Below, in pieces: positions 2,079 through 27,764 of a DNA stretch of 28,001 nucleotides. Below the pieces are notes generated by a model that was given only the letters and a program-made list of their open reading frames with translations, ran no database searches and was not told the origin of the DNA. The DNA comes from a virus. The stretch's first letter is position 1. Each line of letters opens with the position of its first letter. A program made the translations under genes and the position numbers. The stretch lies in the IMG/VR virus record IMGVR_UViG_3300008111_000187, positions 1 through 28,001 of that record. One strand, given 5' to 3'.

Positions 2079-4853
2079 GTGGCTGTACAAAATTTAATAA
2101 CGGGAGAGTTCCAAATTCGTCAAGAAAATGGAGTTTTGGTAGCTGTGAACGGATTGGTTTCCGCAGATACTTCTGGTACTATTGGTACTTCGGGATCTAG
2201 CGGTTCATCTGGAACATCAGGATCTAGTGGTTCATCTGGTATTTCTGGTTCTTCGGGTAGCACCGGGACAAGCGGATCTTCAGGTAGTTCTGGTTCTTCG
2301 GGATTAAATGGTTCTTCAGGCACAAGTGGTAGTTCAGCGACTAGTGGCAGCTCAGGCACATCTGGTACCACAGGTAGCAATGGGACATCGGGTACAACTG
2401 GTACCTCTGGTAGTTCGGGTACATCTGGATTTAATGGTTCATCAGGTACAAGCGGAAGTTCAGCTTCTAGCGGTTCTTCTGGTACGTCTGGCTCATCGGG
2501 AATTGATGGAACTTCGGGTACAGCAGGCACTACTGGTACGTCAGGAAGTTCAGGTACATCGGGTAGCTCTGGTACGTCAGGAACCACTGGTACGTCAGGT
2601 ACGTCAGCCACAAGTGGTACTTCAGGTACTTCGGGCAGCTCAGGTATAGATGGCACATCAGGTACTTCAGGAAGCTCAGCAACTTCTGGTTCTTCTGGGA
2701 CTTCAGGTTCATCGGGAAGTTCAGGTAGTTCTGGGGCGAATGGTAGTAATGGCACTTCGGGTACTTCAGGAATTGATGGTACTTCTGGAAGCTCTGGCAG
2801 CTCTGGATTAGATGGAAGCAACGGCACATCAGGTACATCGGGAATAAATGGCACATCGGGGATAGACGGCACTTCAGGTTCATCAGGTTCTTCGGGAAGC
2901 TCTGGTTCTTCAGGTACGTCTGCTATAGATGGTACGTCTGGTTCTTCGGGTACATCTGGAACTTCAGCAACAAGCGGCACTTCAGGTACGTCAGCGACAA
3001 GCGGTACTTCAGGTACGTCAGCTACATCGGGTACTTCTGGAACTTCAGGATATTCTGGAGATAAATATTACACAACGTCAACATCAACCTTTACTCTTGG
3101 TAATGCAGGATCTATAACAGTTGGGACAGGGCTAGCGTATTCGCCAGCTCAATCAATCATTGTAGTTTATAATGCAAGTAACTTCCAAGAGTGTGAGGTT
3201 ATTTCATATAACTCAGGAACCGGAGCATTGCAGTTTGCAGCTCCTACTAGAACAGTGGGTTCCGGAACATATTCATCATGGACAGTAAACTTAGATGGTG
3301 CTAGTGGAGGCGATGGATCAAGCGGTACGTCAGGAACTTCAGGTGTTAGCGGTACGTCAGGTACTACAGGCACATCAGGTTCCTCAGGTACAACTGGAAC
3401 ATCAGGCAGTTCAGGTTCTTCTGGTTCAAGTGGGACTTCGGGAACGTCAGGACGTAATGGTATAGATGGTTCTTCAGGAGCTTCTATTGCCAACTGGTAT
3501 GGTTCTTTTTCAAGTACAACAACTCAAGTGGTTGGTGGAATTAATACTCCAACAGCTATTACATATAATAATGTTGAGATTTCAAATGGTACTTCTATTA
3601 GCGGATCTCAAATATCAGTACAACATGCAGGTGTATACGAAATAGCTTACTCTTTACAAATAGAAGTTACTTCAGGTGGTACAGCTGTAGAGGTGGATAT
3701 ATGGCTTAAAAAGAATGGTACTAGTATTATTAGAACAGATTCTATTTTAGGTTTGCAATCAAATTCAGGTAAGCAATTGCCTTTTGTGTCTATCATAGAC
3801 CAAGCAAGTGCTAATGATTATTATGAGGTTTATTTCCAATCAACAAGTGCTAATACACAAGTTACAGCAGTAGCGGCAGTAGGTGGTATACCAGCAGCCC
3901 CTTCAATCATTACCAATATCAAACAAATTGGTATAGCTGTAGGTACAACATCTGGAACAAGTGGAAGCTCAGGAAGTTCAGGCACGTCTGGTACTACAGG
4001 GACCTCTGGAAGTAGTGGTGTAAACGGCACATCTGGTACCTCTGGTAGTTCAGGAGTGAGCGGTTCATCTGGTTCTTCTGGAAGTTCGGGTACGACTGGT
4101 ACATCAGGTACGACTGGTACGTCCGGCACATCAGGATTTAACGGAACATCTGGTTCATCTGGTACTACTGGAACGTCAGGTTCATCGGGTACAAATGGAA
4201 CGGGGGGTACGTCAGGAACTAGTGGTAGTACGGGTACGTCTGGCACATCTGGTAGTACGGGTACGTCTGGTTCAAGCGGTACGAGTGGCAGTTCGGGTAC
4301 GTCTGGTACGACAGGTACGAGTGGGACATCTGCTGTAAATGGTACTTCAGGATCATCAGGCACGTCTGGGACATCTGCTACTTCTGGTACAAGTGGATTT
4401 ACCCCTACCAATCAAGTAACAGGAACAGGTACTACTAACTACCTACCTAAGTTTACAGGAAGTACAACTATTGGTAATAGTCAAATATTTGATAATGGTA
4501 CAAATGTAGGTATTAATACGGCTACTCCAAACACAAATTCAAGATTAACTATTTCTGACGGAACTTCTATTTCTGCATATTGGAGAGCAACAAATACAAA
4601 TGCTGCAACAAGAGATTGGTGTATAATAACAAACAATGCTAACTTTGGAGATTTTACTATTAGACAAGGTAACTCACAAGGAGCAGATGCAACTTCAGGA
4701 ACAGATAGATTATTATTATCCGCTTCAGGCAATTTAGGTTTAGGAGTAACACCAAGTGCGTGGAGTTTATTAACCGCATTACAAATTAGTGGCGGTGCTT
4801 CTTTAGCAGGGTATGGTGGTGCTACTTATTTAGGGCAAAATTTTTACCAATGA
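2079..4853 (+). CDS. Giant tail fibre, N-terminal part: collagen-like Gly-Ser/Thr-Ser repeats with C1q-like domain
   Basis: 924 residues from a GTG start (MAVQNLITGEF); no ATG precedes it in frame. Order: short N-terminal attachment segment (1-30); G-x-y repeat tract built from GSS, GTS and GSN with no proline (about 31-325); beta-rich insert (about 326-407); second tract (about 408-467); a jelly-roll-like domain resembling C1q/TNF trimer heads (about 469-622, NWYGSFSSTTTQ... HAGVYEIAYSLQ... VDIWLKKNGTSI); third tract (about 623-774); then the segment NQVTGTGTTNYLPKFTG leading into beta-strand repeats. It overlaps the next ORF by ATGA at 4850-4853. The overlap lies inside a repeat unit that continues in the other frame, so this is probably one fibre of about 1,630 residues broken by a frameshift. 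Confidence 0.88.
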   Translation: MAVQNLITGEFQIRQENGVLVAVNGLVSADTSGTIGTSGSSGSSGTSGSSGSSGISGSSGSTGTSGSSGSSGSSGLNGSSGTSGSSATSGSSGTSGTTGSNGTSGTTGTSGSSGTSGFNGSSGTSGSSASSGSSGTSGSSGIDGTSGTAGTTGTSGSSGTSGSSGTSGTTGTSGTSATSGTSGTSGSSGIDGTSGTSGSSATSGSSGTSGSSGSSGSSGANGSNGTSGTSGIDGTSGSSGSSGLDGSNGTSGTSGINGTSGIDGTSGSSGSSGSSGSSGTSAIDGTSGSSGTSGTSATSGTSGTSATSGTSGTSATSGTSGTSGYSGDKYYTTSTSTFTLGNAGSITVGTGLAYSPAQSIIVVYNASNFQECEVISYNSGTGALQFAAPTRTVGSGTYSSWTVNLDGASGGDGSSGTSGTSGVSGTSGTTGTSGSSGTTGTSGSSGSSGSSGTSGTSGRNGIDGSSGASIANWYGSFSSTTTQVVGGINTPTAITYNNVEISNGTSISGSQISVQHAGVYEIAYSLQIEVTSGGTAVEVDIWLKKNGTSIIRTDSILGLQSNSGKQLPFVSIIDQASANDYYEVYFQSTSANTQVTAVAAVGGIPAAPSIITNIKQIGIAVGTTSGTSGSSGSSGTSGTTGTSGSSGVNGTSGTSGSSGVSGSSGSSGSSGTTGTSGTTGTSGTSGFNGTSGSSGTTGTSGSSGTNGTGGTSGTSGSTGTSGTSGSTGTSGSSGTSGSSGTSGTTGTSGTSAVNGTSGSSGTSGTSATSGTSGFTPTNQVTGTGTTNYLPKFTGSTTIGNSQIFDNGTNVGINTATPNTNSRLTISDGTSISAYWRATNTNAATRDWCIITNNANFGDFTIRQGNSQGADATSGTDRLLLSASGNLGLGVTPSAWSLLTALQISGGASLAGYGGATYLGQNFYQ
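2184..4400 (+). repeat. Three coding tracts of Gly-Ser-Ser / Gly-Thr-Ser triplets
   Basis: Degenerate 9-base repeats of the type GGTTCTTCA / GGTACTTCA / GGAAGCTCA encode uninterrupted G-x-y triplets at about 2184-3060, 3299-3480 and 3948-4400. Codons vary between units while the amino acids stay fixed, so selection acts on the protein. The tracts also produce long spurious antisense frames rich in Pro-Glu-Val and Pro-Asp-Val. Confidence 0.9.
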
Positions 4854-8539: not shown

Positions 8540-10591
8540 TTAGAAGTAACGACTGATTTTATTGATTACCATATCTGCGGTTATTGATGTCTGGCACTCA
8601 AAGTTCTTTTGATAAGGACACCAATTCCAATCGCCTTTGTCAAATTTTATGTCACGTTTATTCCAACATCCGTGACATACTTTATCATTCGTGATTCGTA
8701 TGCAGTTGCTAAGGAACTCGTGGTCGTATTCACTAAAATTACTTATTAGTACTACTTGTTTACCTAAAGCCCATGCCAACCAGCTAAGGCCACTGCTAAG
8801 CCCTACAAAGAACGTACTATGGTATATCCAATCCATTGTTGATTCCATTGATGTATCTGGTATCTGTGGGCAATTGTCAAATGGGTTTATTTCTTTGGAA
8901 ACATTGTATACTTTATATCCTTGTTCGGTATAATGGTTAATTAGTTTCTGCCATTCCTCTCTTACCCAGAATTTACATCCTAGCGTAGAATTAGTGGCAA
9001 TGGTGATGTATCTGTTATGTTCTGGACATTCTCTCTTGGTAAATAATTTGGGGCGAATTTCGGTATACTTTAAGCCTAAAATATTAGTAGCAGCTTTTTG
9101 AAGTGGTATTGTGTTTGGTAATTCTGGTTCCCTATTGGTATCGTAGTGCCAGCCAATCTTGTACATGGCATAGCAGTTTACAGAGCTTCCGGGTTCCACT
9201 AATTCAAGTTCAGGGTAGTCCAGTATTTTATTATGAAAAGTAGACAAAACAACCTTGCAGCCATGCTTCTTTTGGAACTCTAAAGCATAAGCTGACCATG
9301 CAATAGTATCTCCAAGCGCACTGCTTTCTATTGATATGAATACCTTTTTATCATGTAAATCCAATACGTTTTCATAGATAAGCTCACCATCTTGGTATAC
9401 ATACGTTTTCCATTTGGTATAGTATTGTCTATTAAGCCTTACCCAGCTATTGCTTTTGATTGTGTTTTGGTAATGGCACACATCATTTTCATCATAGAAT
9501 CTAACATCAAAATCACTATCGCTCTCTCCTTTGATTTCAAGGAAAGGGTGATTAATGAAGTGTTGTATAACACGAACCTTCTGTACTTGTGCTGGCAGTT
9601 CTAATATCTTTTCGTAGGCTTCCTGATGTTTCAGTGCGAAGTGAATAGATTTGTTGTCCTTTGGTACAACATAAGTATTGGGGTATTTGGCTATTAATTC
9701 CAAGTCCGTATTGATGTCATACAGAAATTCATCATACATTCCGGCATACTGCGGAAGATTCCGCGCAACAATAGGCAACCCATGTCCGATGGCCTCACGA
9801 AGCACTAATGGGTTACATTCCCATGTAGAGTTAAACATGAATATATCTGATGCTGTCATGAATGTATCAATATCAGTCCTTTCGCCCCATACCCATACGT
9901 TTGCTGGTAAGTCCTGCATCAATGGTTCCCAATAGTCTTTAAAGTTCCCTGCTTGATTACCAACAAAGTGAAACATCATGTCAGGGTATTTTTTTGCTAT
10001 TTGAAGCCCTTCCTTTTGATTCTTGCCCGGAGTCCATAAGCCTACATTCAGCACATGTTTTTTGTTTCTATCAAATTTAAGTTCATCTTGACATATCGTT
10101 TGGAACTTTTTAAGGTTCTGTTCTTCTATTGGATAAAGTATTGTAACGTACTTTGATTCCAAGTCTGCAAATGTTTCTTCATGATACGGAGTACAAAAAG
10201 AATATAGGTCTGGGTGAAATAGTTTGCTATTCGGATCAAACGAAATATCATGACACGTTTCTACTATTCGGTACTTTCTATCTGGGTTGTAAAGCTTCTT
10301 TACCATTTCCCTATCTAATCTTTCAGACATTTCATCTATATGGATTATATCAGGTTGGAAGTATTCTATCACATCAAATAGCTCCATCTTATTCTCATAA
10401 AGGGTAGTAAAATTACTACCAATTAGTTCCTTTATAGTGTTCCTTTGGACCACATAATCTAATCCATGGCACTGATATTCTACTACATAATATTGATTAT
10501 CAGTGTGGTTTCTCATGCTTTCTAACCTCTTTAATACGAATTGAGGGCAGCCACCTGTACTAAGATGTGGAGTTAAAAATAATATCTTCAT
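8540..10591 (-). CDS. Fused glycosyltransferase: GT4 domain + TibC-like O-heptosyltransferase
   Basis: 683 residues in two enzymes. Residues 1-345 are a GT-B, GT4-like glycosyltransferase: LTPHLSTGGCPQ at the start, LNVGLWTPGKNQ (181-192) opening the second lobe, and the E-x7-E pair in WECNPLVLREA (257-267). Residues about 365-683 resemble the autotransporter O-heptosyltransferase family (TibC/Aah): SIESSALGDTIAWSAYA (420-436), VGLSSGLSWLAWALGKQVVLIS (596-617) and a C-terminal cysteine cluster, C639-x2-C642, C658 and C666, matching the metal-binding finger of TibC. Known members move heptose from ADP-heptose to Ser of repetitive surface proteins. It is the second gene of a two-gene operon, overlapping the first by 4 bases. 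The likely acceptor is a phage or host surface protein; the Ser/Thr-rich fibre is an attractive candidate (inference). Confidence 0.85.
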   Translation of the reverse strand: MKILFLTPHLSTGGCPQFVLKRLESMRNHTDNQYYVVEYQCHGLDYVVQRNTIKELIGSNFTTLYENKMELFDVIEYFQPDIIHIDEMSERLDREMVKKLYNPDRKYRIVETCHDISFDPNSKLFHPDLYSFCTPYHEETFADLESKYVTILYPIEEQNLKKFQTICQDELKFDRNKKHVLNVGLWTPGKNQKEGLQIAKKYPDMMFHFVGNQAGNFKDYWEPLMQDLPANVWVWGERTDIDTFMTASDIFMFNSTWECNPLVLREAIGHGLPIVARNLPQYAGMYDEFLYDINTDLELIAKYPNTYVVPKDNKSIHFALKHQEAYEKILELPAQVQKVRVIQHFINHPFLEIKGESDSDFDVRFYDENDVCHYQNTIKSNSWVRLNRQYYTKWKTYVYQDGELIYENVLDLHDKKVFISIESSALGDTIAWSAYALEFQKKHGCKVVLSTFHNKILDYPELELVEPGSSVNCYAMYKIGWHYDTNREPELPNTIPLQKAATNILGLKYTEIRPKLFTKRECPEHNRYITIATNSTLGCKFWVREEWQKLINHYTEQGYKVYNVSKEINPFDNCPQIPDTSMESTMDWIYHSTFFVGLSSGLSWLAWALGKQVVLISNFSEYDHEFLSNCIRITNDKVCHGCWNKRDIKFDKGDWNWCPYQKNFECQTSITADMVINKISRYF

Positions 10592-23260: not shown

Positions 23261-23323
23261 GTTTAATAGATTGGATAATATATAAAGTATGCGTGATTAC
23301 GAATGCGCATCCCTCGTTAACCT
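23261..23323 (-). ncRNA. Possible decayed hammerhead ribozyme
   Basis: After the stop of the 23322-23510 gene the - strand reads AGGTTAACGAGG. This equals the 5' arm and core of the intact ribozymes (AGGTTAACTGACGAGG) with four bases (CTGA or TGAC) missing. A GATGCGCATTC near-palindrome follows in the stem II position, then CGTAA where CGAAA is expected, and TATTAAAC where TATTAACC is expected. Without CUGANGA it should not cleave. Confidence 0.35.
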
Positions 23324-23510
23324 AAACTATTATATCATCATGCAGTGCTTCTAATTCAGTTAGCCATCCATTGTACATGGATTGTTGTGCATCCTCTAGC
23401 ACTACACATTCAAAAGTATCTTCAAGGTCATCCTTCCAACCGAAGTCGGTGTTCTCTTGTATCTTAGCTAGGATTTGTTCTAGTCTGATTTTGATTTCTA
23501 GATTTGTCAT
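23322..23510 (-). CDS. Small acidic protein, unknown
   Basis: 62 residues (MTNLEIKIRLEQILAKIQEN... DDIIV): a long N-terminal helix, an acidic middle (DDLEDTFECVVLEDAQQS) and a second helix. The stop TAG is immediately followed by GTTAACGAGG, the decayed ribozyme start. Function unknown. Confidence 0.62.
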   Translation of the reverse strand: MTNLEIKIRLEQILAKIQENTDFGWKDDLEDTFECVVLEDAQQSMYNGWLTELEALHDDIIV

Positions 23511-24494: not shown

Positions 24495-24911
24495 TTAAAA
24501 TTTTATAAATTGATAATCGTAATCTCCTTCGTATGCGCCTATAAAAATGTTATCAGATGATAAATCAAGTTCATCGGTTTCATCAGAATCAGATTGTTGA
24601 ACTGCAATGTTTATTTTGGCTAGCCAATCTTTTTTATTACGGATGGCAACCACCTCGTTTACATTTGTCAGAATAACTACACCATAAATTGATTCAGCAT
24701 TTTTTATAAATTGAAATGTACCGCTGTCATCATGTTTATCGTATGTGATTATGCCATCTGATTCTACTATATTTTCAGCATCAGATTCAATCGCAATTAA
24801 ATCTCTCAATTTTTGTTGCGCTTCTGCATCCGAATTGAATTCCTCAATGTAAGCTAGATTTTGAAATGAATAACCTTCGCCGTTCCATGTTTCAATGATT
24901 GCGTATTTCAT
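24495..24911 (-). CDS. Acidic protein downstream of ribozyme A, unknown
   Basis: 138 residues from the ATG at 24911 (MKYAIIETWNGEGYSFQNLA). The frame continues 17 codons further up to 24962, but that part lies in the ribozyme A exit and the shared leader hairpin, so it is taken as untranslated. The protein is acidic (SDSDETDELDLSSDN near residues 107-121) and alpha/beta. It would be made from a message released by ribozyme A. Function unknown. Confidence 0.68.
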   Translation of the reverse strand: MKYAIIETWNGEGYSFQNLAYIEEFNSDAEAQQKLRDLIAIESDAENIVESDGIITYDKHDDSGTFQFIKNAESIYGVVILTNVNEVVAIRNKKDWLAKINIAVQQSDSDETDELDLSSDNIFIGAYEGDYDYQFIKF

Positions 24912-24915
24912 TTTA

Positions 24916-24950
24916 ATTTTTTCAGTTTTTAATGTGGTGACTCCACAATT
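24916..24950 (-). promoter_or_regulatory. Conserved 5' leader hairpin, copy 1
   Basis: Just after ribozyme A the - strand reads TGTGG-AGTCA-CCACA (a 5-bp stem with a 5-base loop), then TTAAAAACTGAAAA, then the ATG at 24911. The same hairpin and AAAAACTGAAAA follow ribozyme C. Its function could be RNA stability, a binding site or translational control. Confidence 0.6.
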
Positions 24951-25001
24951 GGTTAAGACCACCCGAAGGTGGTTTCGGCCATTAGGCCTCGTCAGTTAAC
25001 C
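24951..25001 (-). ncRNA. Hammerhead ribozyme A (type I)
   Basis: On the - strand: stem I GGTTAA (25001-24996), core CTGACGA (24995-24989), stem II GGCC-TAAT-GGCC (24988-24977), GAA plus A15.1 (24976-24973), stem III CCACC-TTCG-GGTGG (24972-24959), U16.1, C17 (24957), and stem I partner TTAACC (24956-24951). Every invariant hammerhead core base is present. Expected cleavage is after C17. The stop codon TAA of the DUF932 gene lies inside stem I. The next gene starts at 24911. Confidence 0.93.
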
Positions 25002-25895
25002 TGCGTAGATTGTTTCAAATAATCTCTCATCTAGTGTACGTTGTTGGTCAAATGTTTTCTTTAATTTACCATGTAATAATTCGTTGAATGCGTTGTATAC
25101 AATCCATTGATTAGGACGCGTGTTTAGTAGCTTTGATTCGCGCTCAATCACATCAAAAACAAATCTTGCATTGGCGCTAGGCTCAGGGTTCTTATCGCTA
25201 GATTCATACTTAAACAATCCTGATGTTTTAGCGGTGAACTTTACATAATCCTCTAGGTTATACACCGGACGTTCTGCAAGCACCTCAAATTTGCGTTTTA
25301 GACTATAGAATTCGTTGTCCATGAACTTACCTACAATCTCATCCAATTTAGGCATTACAATGTCAGCAATAGCCCCTGAGTGCTTAACTGAGAAGCCAAT
25401 GTGTGTTTGTGCTACATGGAGGCCATTGTCACACACCTTGCGCCAAAATCCAAAAGAACCGCTAGTCTTACATGAACCATCATAGCTATTCACAAATCGT
25501 AGCATAGGACGTAGTACATCCTGTTCACCTTTAACAGCTACTTTGTACCTGTCATCTGCTAGGACGTAATCAACTACAAACGAGCGATTGTCACGATTGA
25601 TACTGCGTTGTTGGTAGTAGATGTCTGCATCAATTAGCTTCTCCTCTACACCCAGAAAAAATTTCTCATTTGGTAGATGGCCATAAGAATTAGAAACCAC
25701 ATTCACGATTTGATTCTCACAGATGATGGCATTCTCTAAACCTCTCCTAGAGGCGATTCCTGTCAGGCTTTGCAGTGGGACGATGGATGAGTCAACCAAG
25801 ACATTATCCTGTCTAGAATTGGCTAAAATGCTGTCTAATTTTGATGCTGCTTCCTGTGGTGTACGGGCTGAGAAAGTGTCTTGTAACTTATTCAT
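24996..25895 (-). CDS. DUF932 family protein
   Basis: 299 residues. The family-typical block is MLRFVNSYDGSCKTSGSFGF then WRKVCDNGLHVAQTHIGFSVKH, with upstream segments such as ENQIVNVVSNSYGHLPNEKF. DUF932 proteins are phage- and plasmid-encoded; their role is not settled, though links to anti-restriction have been suggested. This is the largest gene of the leftward operon. Its start follows the leader hairpin downstream of ribozyme C, and its stop is embedded in ribozyme A, so a monocistronic message would be released between the two cuts. Confidence 0.88.
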   Translation of the reverse strand: MNKLQDTFSARTPQEAASKLDSILANSRQDNVLVDSSIVPLQSLTGIASRRGLENAIICENQIVNVVSNSYGHLPNEKFFLGVEEKLIDADIYYQQRSINRDNRSFVVDYVLADDRYKVAVKGEQDVLRPMLRFVNSYDGSCKTSGSFGFWRKVCDNGLHVAQTHIGFSVKHSGAIADIVMPKLDEIVGKFMDNEFYSLKRKFEVLAERPVYNLEDYVKFTAKTSGLFKYESSDKNPEPSANARFVFDVIERESKLLNTRPNQWIVYNAFNELLHGKLKKTFDQQRTLDERLFETIYAG

Positions 25896-25897
25896 AA

Positions 25898-25934
25898 AAT
25901 ATTTTCAGTTTTTTATGTGGTGACTCCACGTTAT
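25898..25934 (-). promoter_or_regulatory. Conserved 5' leader hairpin, copy 2
   Basis: After ribozyme C the - strand carries CGTGG-AGTCA-CCACA (a 4-bp stem with the identical loop), then TAAAAAACTGAAAA and the ATG at 25895. It matches the leader at 24916-24950 apart from a few bases. Retention of the stem and loop after two different ribozymes points to a shared function. Confidence 0.6.
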
Positions 25935-26040
25935 GGTTAATACATCCTAGCCGGTACCCTACCGATTTGATAAATGTACCCCCACGCTCTGCATGGTAGC
26001 TCTAGGATGTTTCGGATATTGAATCCATCATCAGTTAACC
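25935..26040 (-). ncRNA. Hammerhead ribozyme C (type I, extended stem III)
   Basis: On the - strand: GGTTAA (26040-26035), CTGATGA (26034-26028), one extra U, stem II GGAT-TCAAT-ATCC (about 26026-26014), GAAA (26013-26010), stem III CATCCTAG (26009-26002) pairing perfectly with CTAGGATG (25950-25943), then U, A17 (25941) and TTAACC (25940-25935). About 50 bases inside stem III form an insert that can fold further (GGTAC...GTACC). The TAG stop of the 26042-26317 gene lies one base before stem I. Confidence 0.88.
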
Positions 26041-26041
26041 T

Positions 26042-26317
26042 CTAGTATATATCAACACCGCTATATGTTCTGCTAATTTCAATCAGGGTGTCACCAATCT
26101 GCATGGCATCCCTCCTATTAAAGAATCGCTCAACCTCGTATCCTAGCATCCCATTAGGCTTGCAATGGTCAATTGCTTTCCATCCGGCATCCTGACCGCT
26201 CTCAGGGAGCATAATTGAATTAAATTTGATAGCTTCTGAACAACTAAACGGACGGAAGCCATGCTTGGATAATTTAGCATTCACATTTGCTAATCTTCTT
26301 TTTAAATTTGGTTTCAT
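26042..26317 (-). CDS. Basic protein before ribozyme C, unknown
   Basis: 91 residues (MKPNLKRRLANVNAKLSKHG...). A basic N-terminal helix is followed by a mixed region (AIDHCKPNGMLGYEVERFFNRRDAMQIGDTLIEISRTY). The basic start may suit nucleic-acid binding. Its stop is adjacent to ribozyme C. No family recognised. Confidence 0.65.
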   Translation of the reverse strand: MKPNLKRRLANVNAKLSKHGFRPFSCSEAIKFNSIMLPESGQDAGWKAIDHCKPNGMLGYEVERFFNRRDAMQIGDTLIEISRTYSGVDIY

Positions 26318-26326
26318 GTGGTTAGT

Positions 26327-26500
26327 TTAAAATTTGATATATTCTCGTGTGTTGATATTTTTAAATAGCAGTACTTCCTTATCTGTTCCTTGGTGCTGCA
26401 CACCCATGTACATATAAAGACCGGCATAATTCTGATCGTTTGGATTACTGCTCAGCAACCCATTTTCAATAGCAATGGTAAAAGCTAAATTTGGACTCAT
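26327..26500 (-). CDS. 57-residue protein after ribozyme D, unknown
   Basis: From the ATG at 26500: MSPNLAFTIAIENGLLSSNP then NDQNYAGLYMYMGVQHQGTD and KEVLLFKNINTREYIKF, stop at 26327-26329. The mixed alpha/beta composition is that of a soluble protein and fills the gap between the genes at 26042-26317 and 26564-26767. The ribozyme D exit lies 16 bases upstream, so it would be translated from a message beginning UUAGCC. Confidence 0.68.
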   Translation of the reverse strand: MSPNLAFTIAIENGLLSSNPNDQNYAGLYMYMGVQHQGTDKEVLLFKNINTREYIKF

Positions 26501-26516
26501 GGTATGGTATTTTTAT

Positions 26517-26569
26517 GGCTAAGACGCTCCTGAGAGCGTTTCGGCCAATCAGGCCATCGTCAGTTAACC
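26517..26569 (-). ncRNA. Hammerhead ribozyme D (type I)
   Basis: On the - strand: GGTTAA (26569-26564), CTGACGA (26563-26557), one extra U, stem II GGCC-TGATT-GGCC (26555-26543), GAAA (26542-26539), stem III CGCTC-TCAG-GAGCG (26538-26525), U, C17 (26523), and TTAGCC (26522-26517), which pairs with GGTTAA with one G-U wobble. The TAA stop of the 26564-26767 gene is inside stem I. Confidence 0.9.
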
Positions 26570-26767
26570 TTTAGCAGGGGCAAACATTTCTCTGCCCATT
26601 CGTATGAATTCGCTATATTCTCTATCACCCATAAATTCTCTTAATTCATTTTGGATAGAATGGTATGCAATGGTTAAGAATCTTGCTACCTCTTTATTTT
26701 CTTGTTCATCAATTAGCATATTTACACTTAATAAATCGCTGAATAACTTGTGTTCGTAGGTTGTCAT
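26564..26767 (-). CDS. Small helical protein before ribozyme D, unknown
   Basis: 67 residues, helical throughout: MTTYEHKLFSDLLSVNMLID then EQENKEVARFLTIAYHSIQN and ELREFMGDREYSEFIRMGRE. The last codons (AAA GGT TAA) run into stem I of ribozyme D. No motif or membrane segment is present. It lies 5 bases after the upstream gene. Confidence 0.65.
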   Translation of the reverse strand: MTTYEHKLFSDLLSVNMLIDEQENKEVARFLTIAYHSIQNELREFMGDREYSEFIRMGREMFAPAKG

Positions 26768-26772
26768 GGTAT

Positions 26773-26994
26773 TTAGTTTAATCGGTTAATAATTGCTTGT
26801 AACGTGTCAGTAGCAGCTAGTACGCAGTCTTTTTTGCGGTATCCGTAATCGCTATCCAAAAAAGTATTGTCCAAGTGTATTTGCCATCCAAATTTCTTAT
26901 CGTAATTAGTAAAAATTTGAATTTCATAAATACCAACTTTTGTAGGCATTGTAGCTACATATGTGTCTGCTACTTTTTTAAATTTTAGATTCAT
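26773..26994 (-). CDS. Small beta-rich protein after ribozyme E, unknown
   Basis: 73 residues (MNLKFKKVADTYVATMPTKV then GIYEIQIFTNYDKKFGWQIH). Repeated beta strands followed by a C-terminal helix (CVLAATDTLQAIINRLN) suggest a small alpha/beta fold. It is preceded by the ribozyme E exit strand and an A/T-rich leader. No specific family. Confidence 0.65.
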   Translation of the reverse strand: MNLKFKKVADTYVATMPTKVGIYEIQIFTNYDKKFGWQIHLDNTFLDSDYGYRKKDCVLAATDTLQAIINRLN

Positions 26995-27010
26995 TTTTAA
27001 AAATTTTTAT

Positions 27011-27072
27011 GGTTAATATGCACATCCCCCTAGGGATGCACATTTCGGCCATTTAGGCCTCATCAGTTAACC
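27011..27072 (-). ncRNA. Hammerhead ribozyme E (type I), overlapping a coding end
   Basis: On the - strand: GGTTAA (27072-27067), CTGATGA (27066-27060), stem II GGCC-TAAAT-GGCC (27059-27047), GAAA (27046-27043), stem III TGTGCATCCC (27042-27033) pairing with GGGATGTGCA (27028-27019, two G-U pairs) around TAGG, then U, A17 (27017) and TTAACC (27016-27011). The core is complete. The gene at 27053-27241 is translated through stem I and the core and stops at the TAA in loop II. Confidence 0.92.
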
Positions 27073-27241
27073 TTTTTAGTGTTCTCTTGGTGAATTCCTT
27101 CTCAAATTTTGAATAGTCTAATTTGGCCAATGTGGTGGCCTCATCTTCAGAAAAATTGAATTTATTCATTAAGAATATTAATCTTTCAAGTAATGGTTGA
27201 GAATTCCAAAATTTACTGATTTCTTTAAATGTTGTGTCCAT
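27053..27241 (-). CDS. Small helical protein ending inside ribozyme E
   Basis: 62 residues: MDTTFKEISKFWNSQPLLER then LIFLMNKFNFSEDEATTLAK and LDYSKFEKEFTKRTLKRLTD. The last codons AGG-TTA-ACT-GAT-GAG-GCC-TAA are the hammerhead stem I, core and 5' half of stem II, so coding and ribozyme sequence are shared. It is the most upstream gene of the leftward operon seen here, with leader TTAACCAATAAAATTTAATACC. Confidence 0.7.
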   Translation of the reverse strand: MDTTFKEISKFWNSQPLLERLIFLMNKFNFSEDEATTLAKLDYSKFEKEFTKRTLKRLTDEA

Positions 27242-27265
27242 GGTATTAAATTTTATTGGTTAATA

Positions 27266-27600
27266 TGTGTGGCCATCGTGTGGGTAAGAAGGTAGCAGAC
27301 AAGACATCTTGAAAGTACCAACCTATGCATTCCACATCGGATTCCGTAGTTGGAGGTCAACGCTACCTATATAGGTGGTAGCTACTTCCCTAGCTTCTTT
27401 TTATACCCTCAAGCTAGTGATGGTGTGGTGGTTGGGGTGCTTATAGGCTCGGCAGACAATCCTTAGTGCTACTATATAGTATGTCTATATTTCGCATTGT
27501 CGGGTTCAGCATTTCTTAGTTTTTAAACGTAAGTGAGAACCCACCTTGAAAAGAACTAGCGACATCGTTTCCCTCAATCGCTATGCTAAGGTACGGAATT
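27266..27600. other. Non-coding region with nested inverted repeats (possible structured RNA)
   Basis: No ORF is supported. Perfect inverted repeats are 27362-27367/27377-27382 (GCTACC/GGTAGC), 27390-27396/27411-27417 (CTAGCTT/AAGCTAG), 27455-27460/27496-27501 (GACAAT/ATTGTC, enclosing the hairpin 27474-27490, ATATAG-TATGT-CTATAT), and 27557-27562/27578-27583 (TAGCGA/TCGCTA). It could be an untranslated structured RNA or a replication region. The strand is undetermined; the - strand would join the downstream operon. Confidence 0.4.
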
Positions 27601-27607
27601 ATTTTAT

Positions 27608-27764
27608 ATTTGAGCAAAATAAAATCAATGAAGAGGTGTTTTCACAAAATTTTAACATTTGGACCTAAATCAATTTAAAGGCCATTTTTAGGCGATTCTA
27701 GACACCCTGATACGTTTTGATACTAATACCAAGGACGGACCGAGATAGTTTAAATTTGAGCAAA
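27608..27764 (-). repeat. 11-base direct repeat with promoter-like boxes
   Basis: ATTTGAGCAAA occurs at 27608-27618 and 27754-27764. On the - strand each copy sits in a -7-like box: TATTTTGC for the first, and CTAATTTGC (27760-27768) for the second, the same 9-mer as at 23107 and 24352. They may be tandem promoters for the leftward operon. Confidence 0.35.

Follow-up and report, generated by a model that had tools for sequence, protein, structure and literature searches.

We analysed a 28,001-nt stretch of viral DNA (the window), in which an operon read leftward on the minus strand carries four type I hammerhead ribozymes between and within the ends of its genes. The ribozymes were scored with R1, a covariance model made from 28 hammerheads of other phages, none of them from the window. 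In the direction of transcription the locus comprises the following features:

27586-27619, minus strand: possible Bacteroidota-type promoter, TTTTG-N-TACCTTAG (pattern match; over the whole window such matches do not exceed chance)
27258-27580 (approximate), minus strand: structured leader RNA before the first gene (seven contigs, 12 covarying pairs)
27053-27241, minus strand: 62-aa gene of no family, ending within stem II of ribozyme 4
27011-27072, minus strand: ribozyme 4, type I hammerhead (R1 60.0 bits, E 4.1e-12; Rfam RAGATH-1 28.2 bits)
26773-26994, minus strand: 73-aa gene, ATG 22 nt past cut 4
26564-26767, minus strand: 67-aa gene, stop in stem I of ribozyme 3
26517-26569, minus strand: ribozyme 3, type I hammerhead with an extra U after A9 (R1 57.3 bits, E 1.8e-11)
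26327-26500, minus strand: 57-aa gene, ATG 22 nt past cut 3
26042-26317, minus strand: 91-aa gene, ending one base ahead of ribozyme 2
25935-26040, minus strand: ribozyme 2, type I hammerhead with an extra U (26027) and a three-way junction in stem III (R1, fold, covariation)
25943-26009, minus strand: stem III domain of ribozyme 2, conserved in L128, L064/L129/L130, L135 and L136
25917-25929, minus strand: small hairpin GUGGAGUCACCAC between cut 2 and the DUF932 start (sequence, fold)
24996-25895, minus strand: DUF932 protein, 299 aa, between ribozymes 2 and 1 (PF06067, E 3.1e-16)
24951-25001, minus strand: ribozyme 1, type I hammerhead (R1 66.5 bits, E 1.2e-13; hammerhead fold)
24933-24947, minus strand: small hairpin GUGGAGUCACCAC after cut 1 (sequence, fold)
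24495-24911, minus strand: 138-aa gene, ATG 45 nt past cut 1

Elsewhere, the window encodes a collagen-repeat tail fibre (2079-4853, plus strand) and a two-domain glycosyltransferase (8540-10591, minus strand).

The window ribozymes read GGUUAA-CUGAYGA-(stem II)-GAA-A-(stem III)-U-H^-UUAACC, the last element being UUAGCC in ribozyme 3. All four contain CUGANGA, GAAA, A15.1-U16.1 and H17 together with a 6-bp stem I, and their three helices are arranged as in a type I hammerhead, with stem I open and stems II and III closed. The A/A beside stem I and the UNANU loop II, candidate elements of a stem I-loop II contact, are conserved. The predicted cuts lie at 24957/24956 (ribozyme 1), 25941/25940 (ribozyme 2), 26523/26522 (ribozyme 3) and 27017/27016 (ribozyme 4). 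The original prediction had placed four minus-strand hammerheads here, with C17 at 24957 and 26523 and A17 at 25941 and 27017; these H17 assignments are correct, and the ribozymes themselves are borne out by R1 (E from 1.2e-13 to 1.1e-3), the next-best place in the window reaching 11.3 bits. The low score of ribozyme 2 (24.9 bits, E 1.1e-3) is due to the 67-nt insert in its stem III, and its assignment also draws on covariation among five sequences. The extra U between A9 and stem II in ribozymes 2 and 3 had been missed.

A search with the pattern GGTTAACTGAYGA..GAAA, which spans stem I, the core and GAAA, matched four places on the minus strand, and the reversed control pattern matched none on the same strand of the window. 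A strict descriptor, which takes just two of the four window ribozymes as the other two are excluded by the extra base, gave no match among 100 shuffled windows. By single-sequence folding, three of the four adopt the hammerhead secondary structure. The covariance search proposed earlier as a check succeeded in part: R1 matches all four ribozymes, whereas Rfam, searched with E values up to 5, gives as its sole match RAGATH-1 (RF03152) on ribozyme 4, at 28.2 bits and therefore below the gathering score of 56.3. A degenerate hammerhead candidate at 23280-23340 was dropped, as it has no hammerhead fold.

The stems show the compensatory covariation of a type I hammerhead. In the R1 training set every sequence forms the full 15 pairs (100% of stem cells paired), and 12 of the 15 vary on both sides. 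The closest relative of the window among the matches listed, the 19.9-kb contig L139/L128 (blocks 89-98% identical), carries five hammerheads. At the position of ribozyme 1, stem II is GGCC/GGCC in the window and GGGGG/CCCCC in the relative; at that of ribozyme 4, GGCC/GGCC corresponds to GUCU/AGAC, and stem III differs yet stays paired. Stem changes without compensation in related phages had been named as grounds for abandoning the ribozymes; both altered ribozymes are fully compensated. The gene content of L139 differs too: the 91-aa gene is missing, ribozyme 2 following directly on the 57-aa gene, and an additional 124-aa gene with a hammerhead lies between the leader and the first gene.

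Relatives of these ribozymes occur in more than 100 other phage sequences, likewise between stop and start codons. When viral contigs were scanned for TTAACTGANGA-N-CGAAA, at least 120 stretches matched, and among these a descriptor that is silent in shuffled sequence found complete type I hammerheads; from this and a second, more specific scan we collected at least 189 hammerheads that are non-redundant in their flanks. Two or more are present in 37 of the 73 virus records searched whole. The largest array in a virus record comprises nine hammerheads within 4.3 kb (G005), and the descriptor also finds nine in a 5.8-kb contig binned as Aliivibrio. Eleven contigs of bacteria or MAGs also matched, among them some from cultured strains of Mucilaginibacter and Aquimarina. 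Rfam at gathering thresholds gave no match in 86 kb of array loci, three other arrays had no counterpart in named phages at the DNA level, hammerheads are absent from the cultured relatives that have DUF932 (6H and FPSV-F7), and type II hammerheads were searched for in the collected loci and not found.

The core is invariant in the relatives. Stem I comprises 6 bp with A on both flanks in 168 of the 189 listed members, which also have a 4-bp stem II with a UNANU loop, and H17 is C in 173; the scans demanded parts of stem I, the core and sometimes loop II, which in part dictates the statistics for stem I and loop II, while the A/A flanks, the stop and start positions and the stem III loops were left free. 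In the first scan, where loop II was not imposed, its U and A are invariant (24/24). Stem III loops are mostly GNRA or UNCG among the at least 189 members, and the extra U between A9 and stem II recurs in at least 16 sequences, including ribozymes 2 and 3. The predicted ribozymes form one sharply defined type I subfamily of at least 189 members, which is new here, as are the recurrent extra core U, the conserved stem III junction of ribozyme 2 and the conserved, covarying leader RNA.

Members of the subfamily stand in register with the codons around them. Three of the four upstream genes in the window terminate within the ribozyme (the DUF932 stop codon, for example, lies inside stem I of ribozyme 1) and the fourth ends one base short. 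In 164 of the 170 cases listed, the position of the upstream stop is within -15 to +12 of core C3, and in 119 the stop overlaps the ribozyme; it is the UAA of stem I in 63, the UGA of CUGA in 24 and a codon whose last base is the first of stem I in 21. Counted from the cut, the distance to the next ATG is 14-37 nt in 159 of the 178 cases listed. Both neighbours, stop and ATG, are present for 161 of 189 hammerheads, compared with 17% at random positions in the same loci, and in each of the 61 loci with several ribozymes all are on one strand. Several hammerheads flank single phage genes on the coding strand, and this fixed stop/start geometry of the predicted subfamily is new here. The longer spacing of 45 nt from cuts 1 and 2 to the next ATG is explained by the hairpin GUGGAGUCACCAC, which before DUF932 is kept in L232, L469 and L472. 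A homologue of the 57-aa gene sits behind a type I hammerhead in L163.

Given their sequence, structure, covariation, position, strand and recurrence, we propose that these type I hammerheads cut the leftward polycistronic phage transcript at cistron boundaries with complete frames on both sides, a reading to which we assign a probability of about 0.78. Each cut would fall after the stop of one gene and 22 or 45 nt ahead of the next start, and because of this placement both products would contain complete reading frames. The upstream message would retain the catalytic domain as a 3' cap, consisting of stem II, the stem III hairpin and a 2',3'-cyclic phosphate, and the downstream message would begin with a short A-rich 5'-OH leader, UUAACCA.... 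If cleavage occurs in the phage, as we infer, such ends would plausibly hinder exonucleases and any decay that depends on a 5'-monophosphate, with effects on stability and translation, and each small gene might be expressed and exchanged independently. Three observations count against this reading: the extra core base in ribozymes 2 and 3; the minimum-energy fold of ribozyme 3, which is a competitor of the hammerhead; and the confinement of the ribozymes to the first part of the operon, where some junctions within the array are without one.

Cleavage at cistron boundaries could take a special form, in which it is gated by translation. A terminating ribosome would cover the core and block its folding, so that cutting would occur when the upstream gene is translated slowly or not at all, which would make the array a feedback switch, not a constitutive cutter. 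The position of the stop codon relative to C3 and its frequent overlap with the ribozyme, in the cases listed above, fit the established footprint of the ribosome. The same geometry, however, comes free in compact phage genomes, as GGUUAACUGA has stops in two frames, and fast co-transcriptional cleavage could outrun the ribosome. We consider gating unlikely on balance. Both it and the exchange of gene cassettes discussed below are compatible with cutting at cistron boundaries, and the confidences we attach to them are not exclusive.

The long stem III of ribozyme 2 had been described as a simple hairpin, but is actually a three-way junction composed, in order, of an outer helix, AGCUA, a 6-bp hairpin with an ARA loop, G, a second hairpin and GG. 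The domain is common to two phage groups, lying in stem III ahead of DUF932 in L128 and ahead of an unrelated 75-aa gene in L064/L129/L130, L135 and L136. Among five distinct sequences the hairpins covary and the junction strands are constant. Rfam gave no match to the junction, and a descriptor search found it solely inside hammerheads; a looser scan for it outside ribozymes was too loose and was set aside. As in an allosteric ribozyme, a conserved extra domain is attached to the catalytic one, and a sensor role for the junction is our guess. A fuller version, in which ribozyme 2 would be a naturally regulated hammerhead whose junction strands AGCUA, G and GG sense a metabolite or protein and tune cutting before the next gene in an array that is also ribosome-gated, seems to us improbable.

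Alternatively, the ribozymes may serve mainly as repeats for gene-cassette exchange, with cutting secondary. The extra gene and hammerhead of L139 point in this direction, as the matching joint in the window falls at a common CACACATATTAACCA, and the ends of homology blocks fall close to hammerheads in both sequences in 46 of 154 cases, where about 19.5 would be expected, although the loci were compared in pairs that are not independent and rapid divergence, too, can end an alignment. The mostly variable stem III and invariant core are, moreover, the reverse of what a recombination repeat needs, which leaves this explanation with a small chance of being right.

The fragments between cuts might also be ligated, by the ribozymes or by RtcB, to give circular or spliced RNA. 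The 5'-OH and cyclic phosphate ends and the complementary halves of stem I would suit such a reaction, and stem I is identical in all four window ribozymes (with one G-U variant), so their ends would be interchangeable. Against this, 20 of 39 multi-ribozyme loci contain ribozymes with unlike stem I sequences, and RtcB is encoded in 0 of 44 array-bearing records, a count of the phage side that leaves room for a host RtcB. Perreault et al. (PMC3088659) weighed splicing and circular RNA as products, sought them and detected neither. We regard ligation as very improbable. That the motifs arose by chance or have decayed and lack activity is scarcely credible, for although activity is here predicted from sequence, stem changes are compensated at orthologous places, the core does not vary among relatives and none appear in shuffles.

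We identified seven loci that contain a type III hammerhead besides type I:

L147, 3138-3193: type III hammerhead
L163, 721-775: type III hammerhead
L172, 12931-12984: type III hammerhead
L196, 10479-10532: type III hammerhead
L243, 384-443: type III hammerhead
L218 and L169, reverse strand: type III hammerheads

Each of the seven has a type I hammerhead 225-477 nt after the type III, on the same strand, and in six the type III is the first of the array. Shuffles of all 2.6 Mb gave one match with a looser descriptor and none with a strict one. After cleavage by type III the ribozyme stays attached to the 5' end of the downstream RNA, and after cleavage by type I to the 3' end of the upstream RNA. 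The type III-first order would therefore cap the first message at both ends, as we infer from the expected products. The order, as predicted for these mixed arrays, is new here.

The function of phage hammerheads has been an open question since 2010-2011. Perreault et al. (2011; PMC3088659) reported phage DNA in which single genes or short blocks are flanked by several hammerheads, proposed that these split transcripts, and demonstrated cleavage by clusters from prophages both in vitro and in E. coli. The original prediction that the array splits an operon is borne out in part: there is strong support for the hammerheads as such and for their place at the cistron boundaries of one operon, and the stop/start geometry of at least 189 relatives favours splitting, but neither the idea nor the arrangement is new; the new parts are details that the prediction did not contain. 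Its statement that phage hammerheads are mostly single is also at odds with the literature. In the text available, PMC3088659 describes arrays of up to three, unlike the window, and lists core insertions without naming a U after A9; nor does this text describe the stop/start register, the stem III junction or the type III-first order. A 2017 review repeats the phage-hammerhead association and calls its role open. We found no later papers on such arrays in a search whose scope omits most subscription papers and preprints. RAGATH-1 (RF03152), the only Rfam family that scores, is likewise a type I hammerhead, but its model has a further hairpin upstream, to which the window is a poor match. The discontinuous type III hammerhead of mammalian Clec2 (PMC6155905) also lies in mRNA untranslated regions, but is split, whereas the window ribozymes are contiguous and of type I. 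Theta ribozymes of gut phages (PMC10879173) are also phage-encoded small self-cleaving ribozymes; in the available parts of that paper they have an HDV-like fold, are linked to tRNA-based recoding and do not form gene-boundary arrays. The old and unproven idea that phages cut long messages into single-gene messages is now directly testable: a many-member subfamily, invisible to Rfam and in fixed stop/start register, turns a guess into concrete predictions of cut sites, ends and the effect of translation. Further novelties, each testable in its own right, are the leader RNA, the junction within stem III, the core with an extra U and the placing of type III ahead of type I.

The leader, of about 310 nt, was found in the window, L139, L232, L422, L458, L469 and L472, and Rfam gave no match to it. 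Its single-sequence fold is no better than those of shuffles; covariation nonetheless supports a structure. The leader ends in AUAUUAACC, the sequence with which a product of type I cleavage would begin; the AUUAACC there is shared with the hammerhead 3' products, though the first gene varies between phages. The leader end, CACAUA^UUAACC, could pair with the ribozyme 4 strand, with one compensated change in L422; a split hammerhead arrangement with the leader is only a lead. In the window and 95 hammerhead-bearing loci, TTAACC was seen 18-23 nt before an ATG 27 times against about 6 expected. This enrichment holds also before genes without a ribozyme, and TTAACC is possibly a translation leader motif re-used by the 3' strand of stem I.

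Gene junctions in two loci carry a hairpin and a substrate half-site, GGUC^UUAAYC or GGUGUC^UUAACC, without the catalytic half, at 2134, 2492, 3454, 4697, 5005 and 5809 in L219 and at 547 and 805 in L155. Such coreless sites are either relics or targets of a ribozyme acting from elsewhere. We do not claim trans cleavage, of the leader end or of these orphan sites, as UUAACC about 22 nt before ATG is enriched also before genes that lack a ribozyme and the coreless sites are common only in L219. The possible promoter ahead of the leader has a counterpart in L422, TTTG-N-TATCTTTG, in the same placement.
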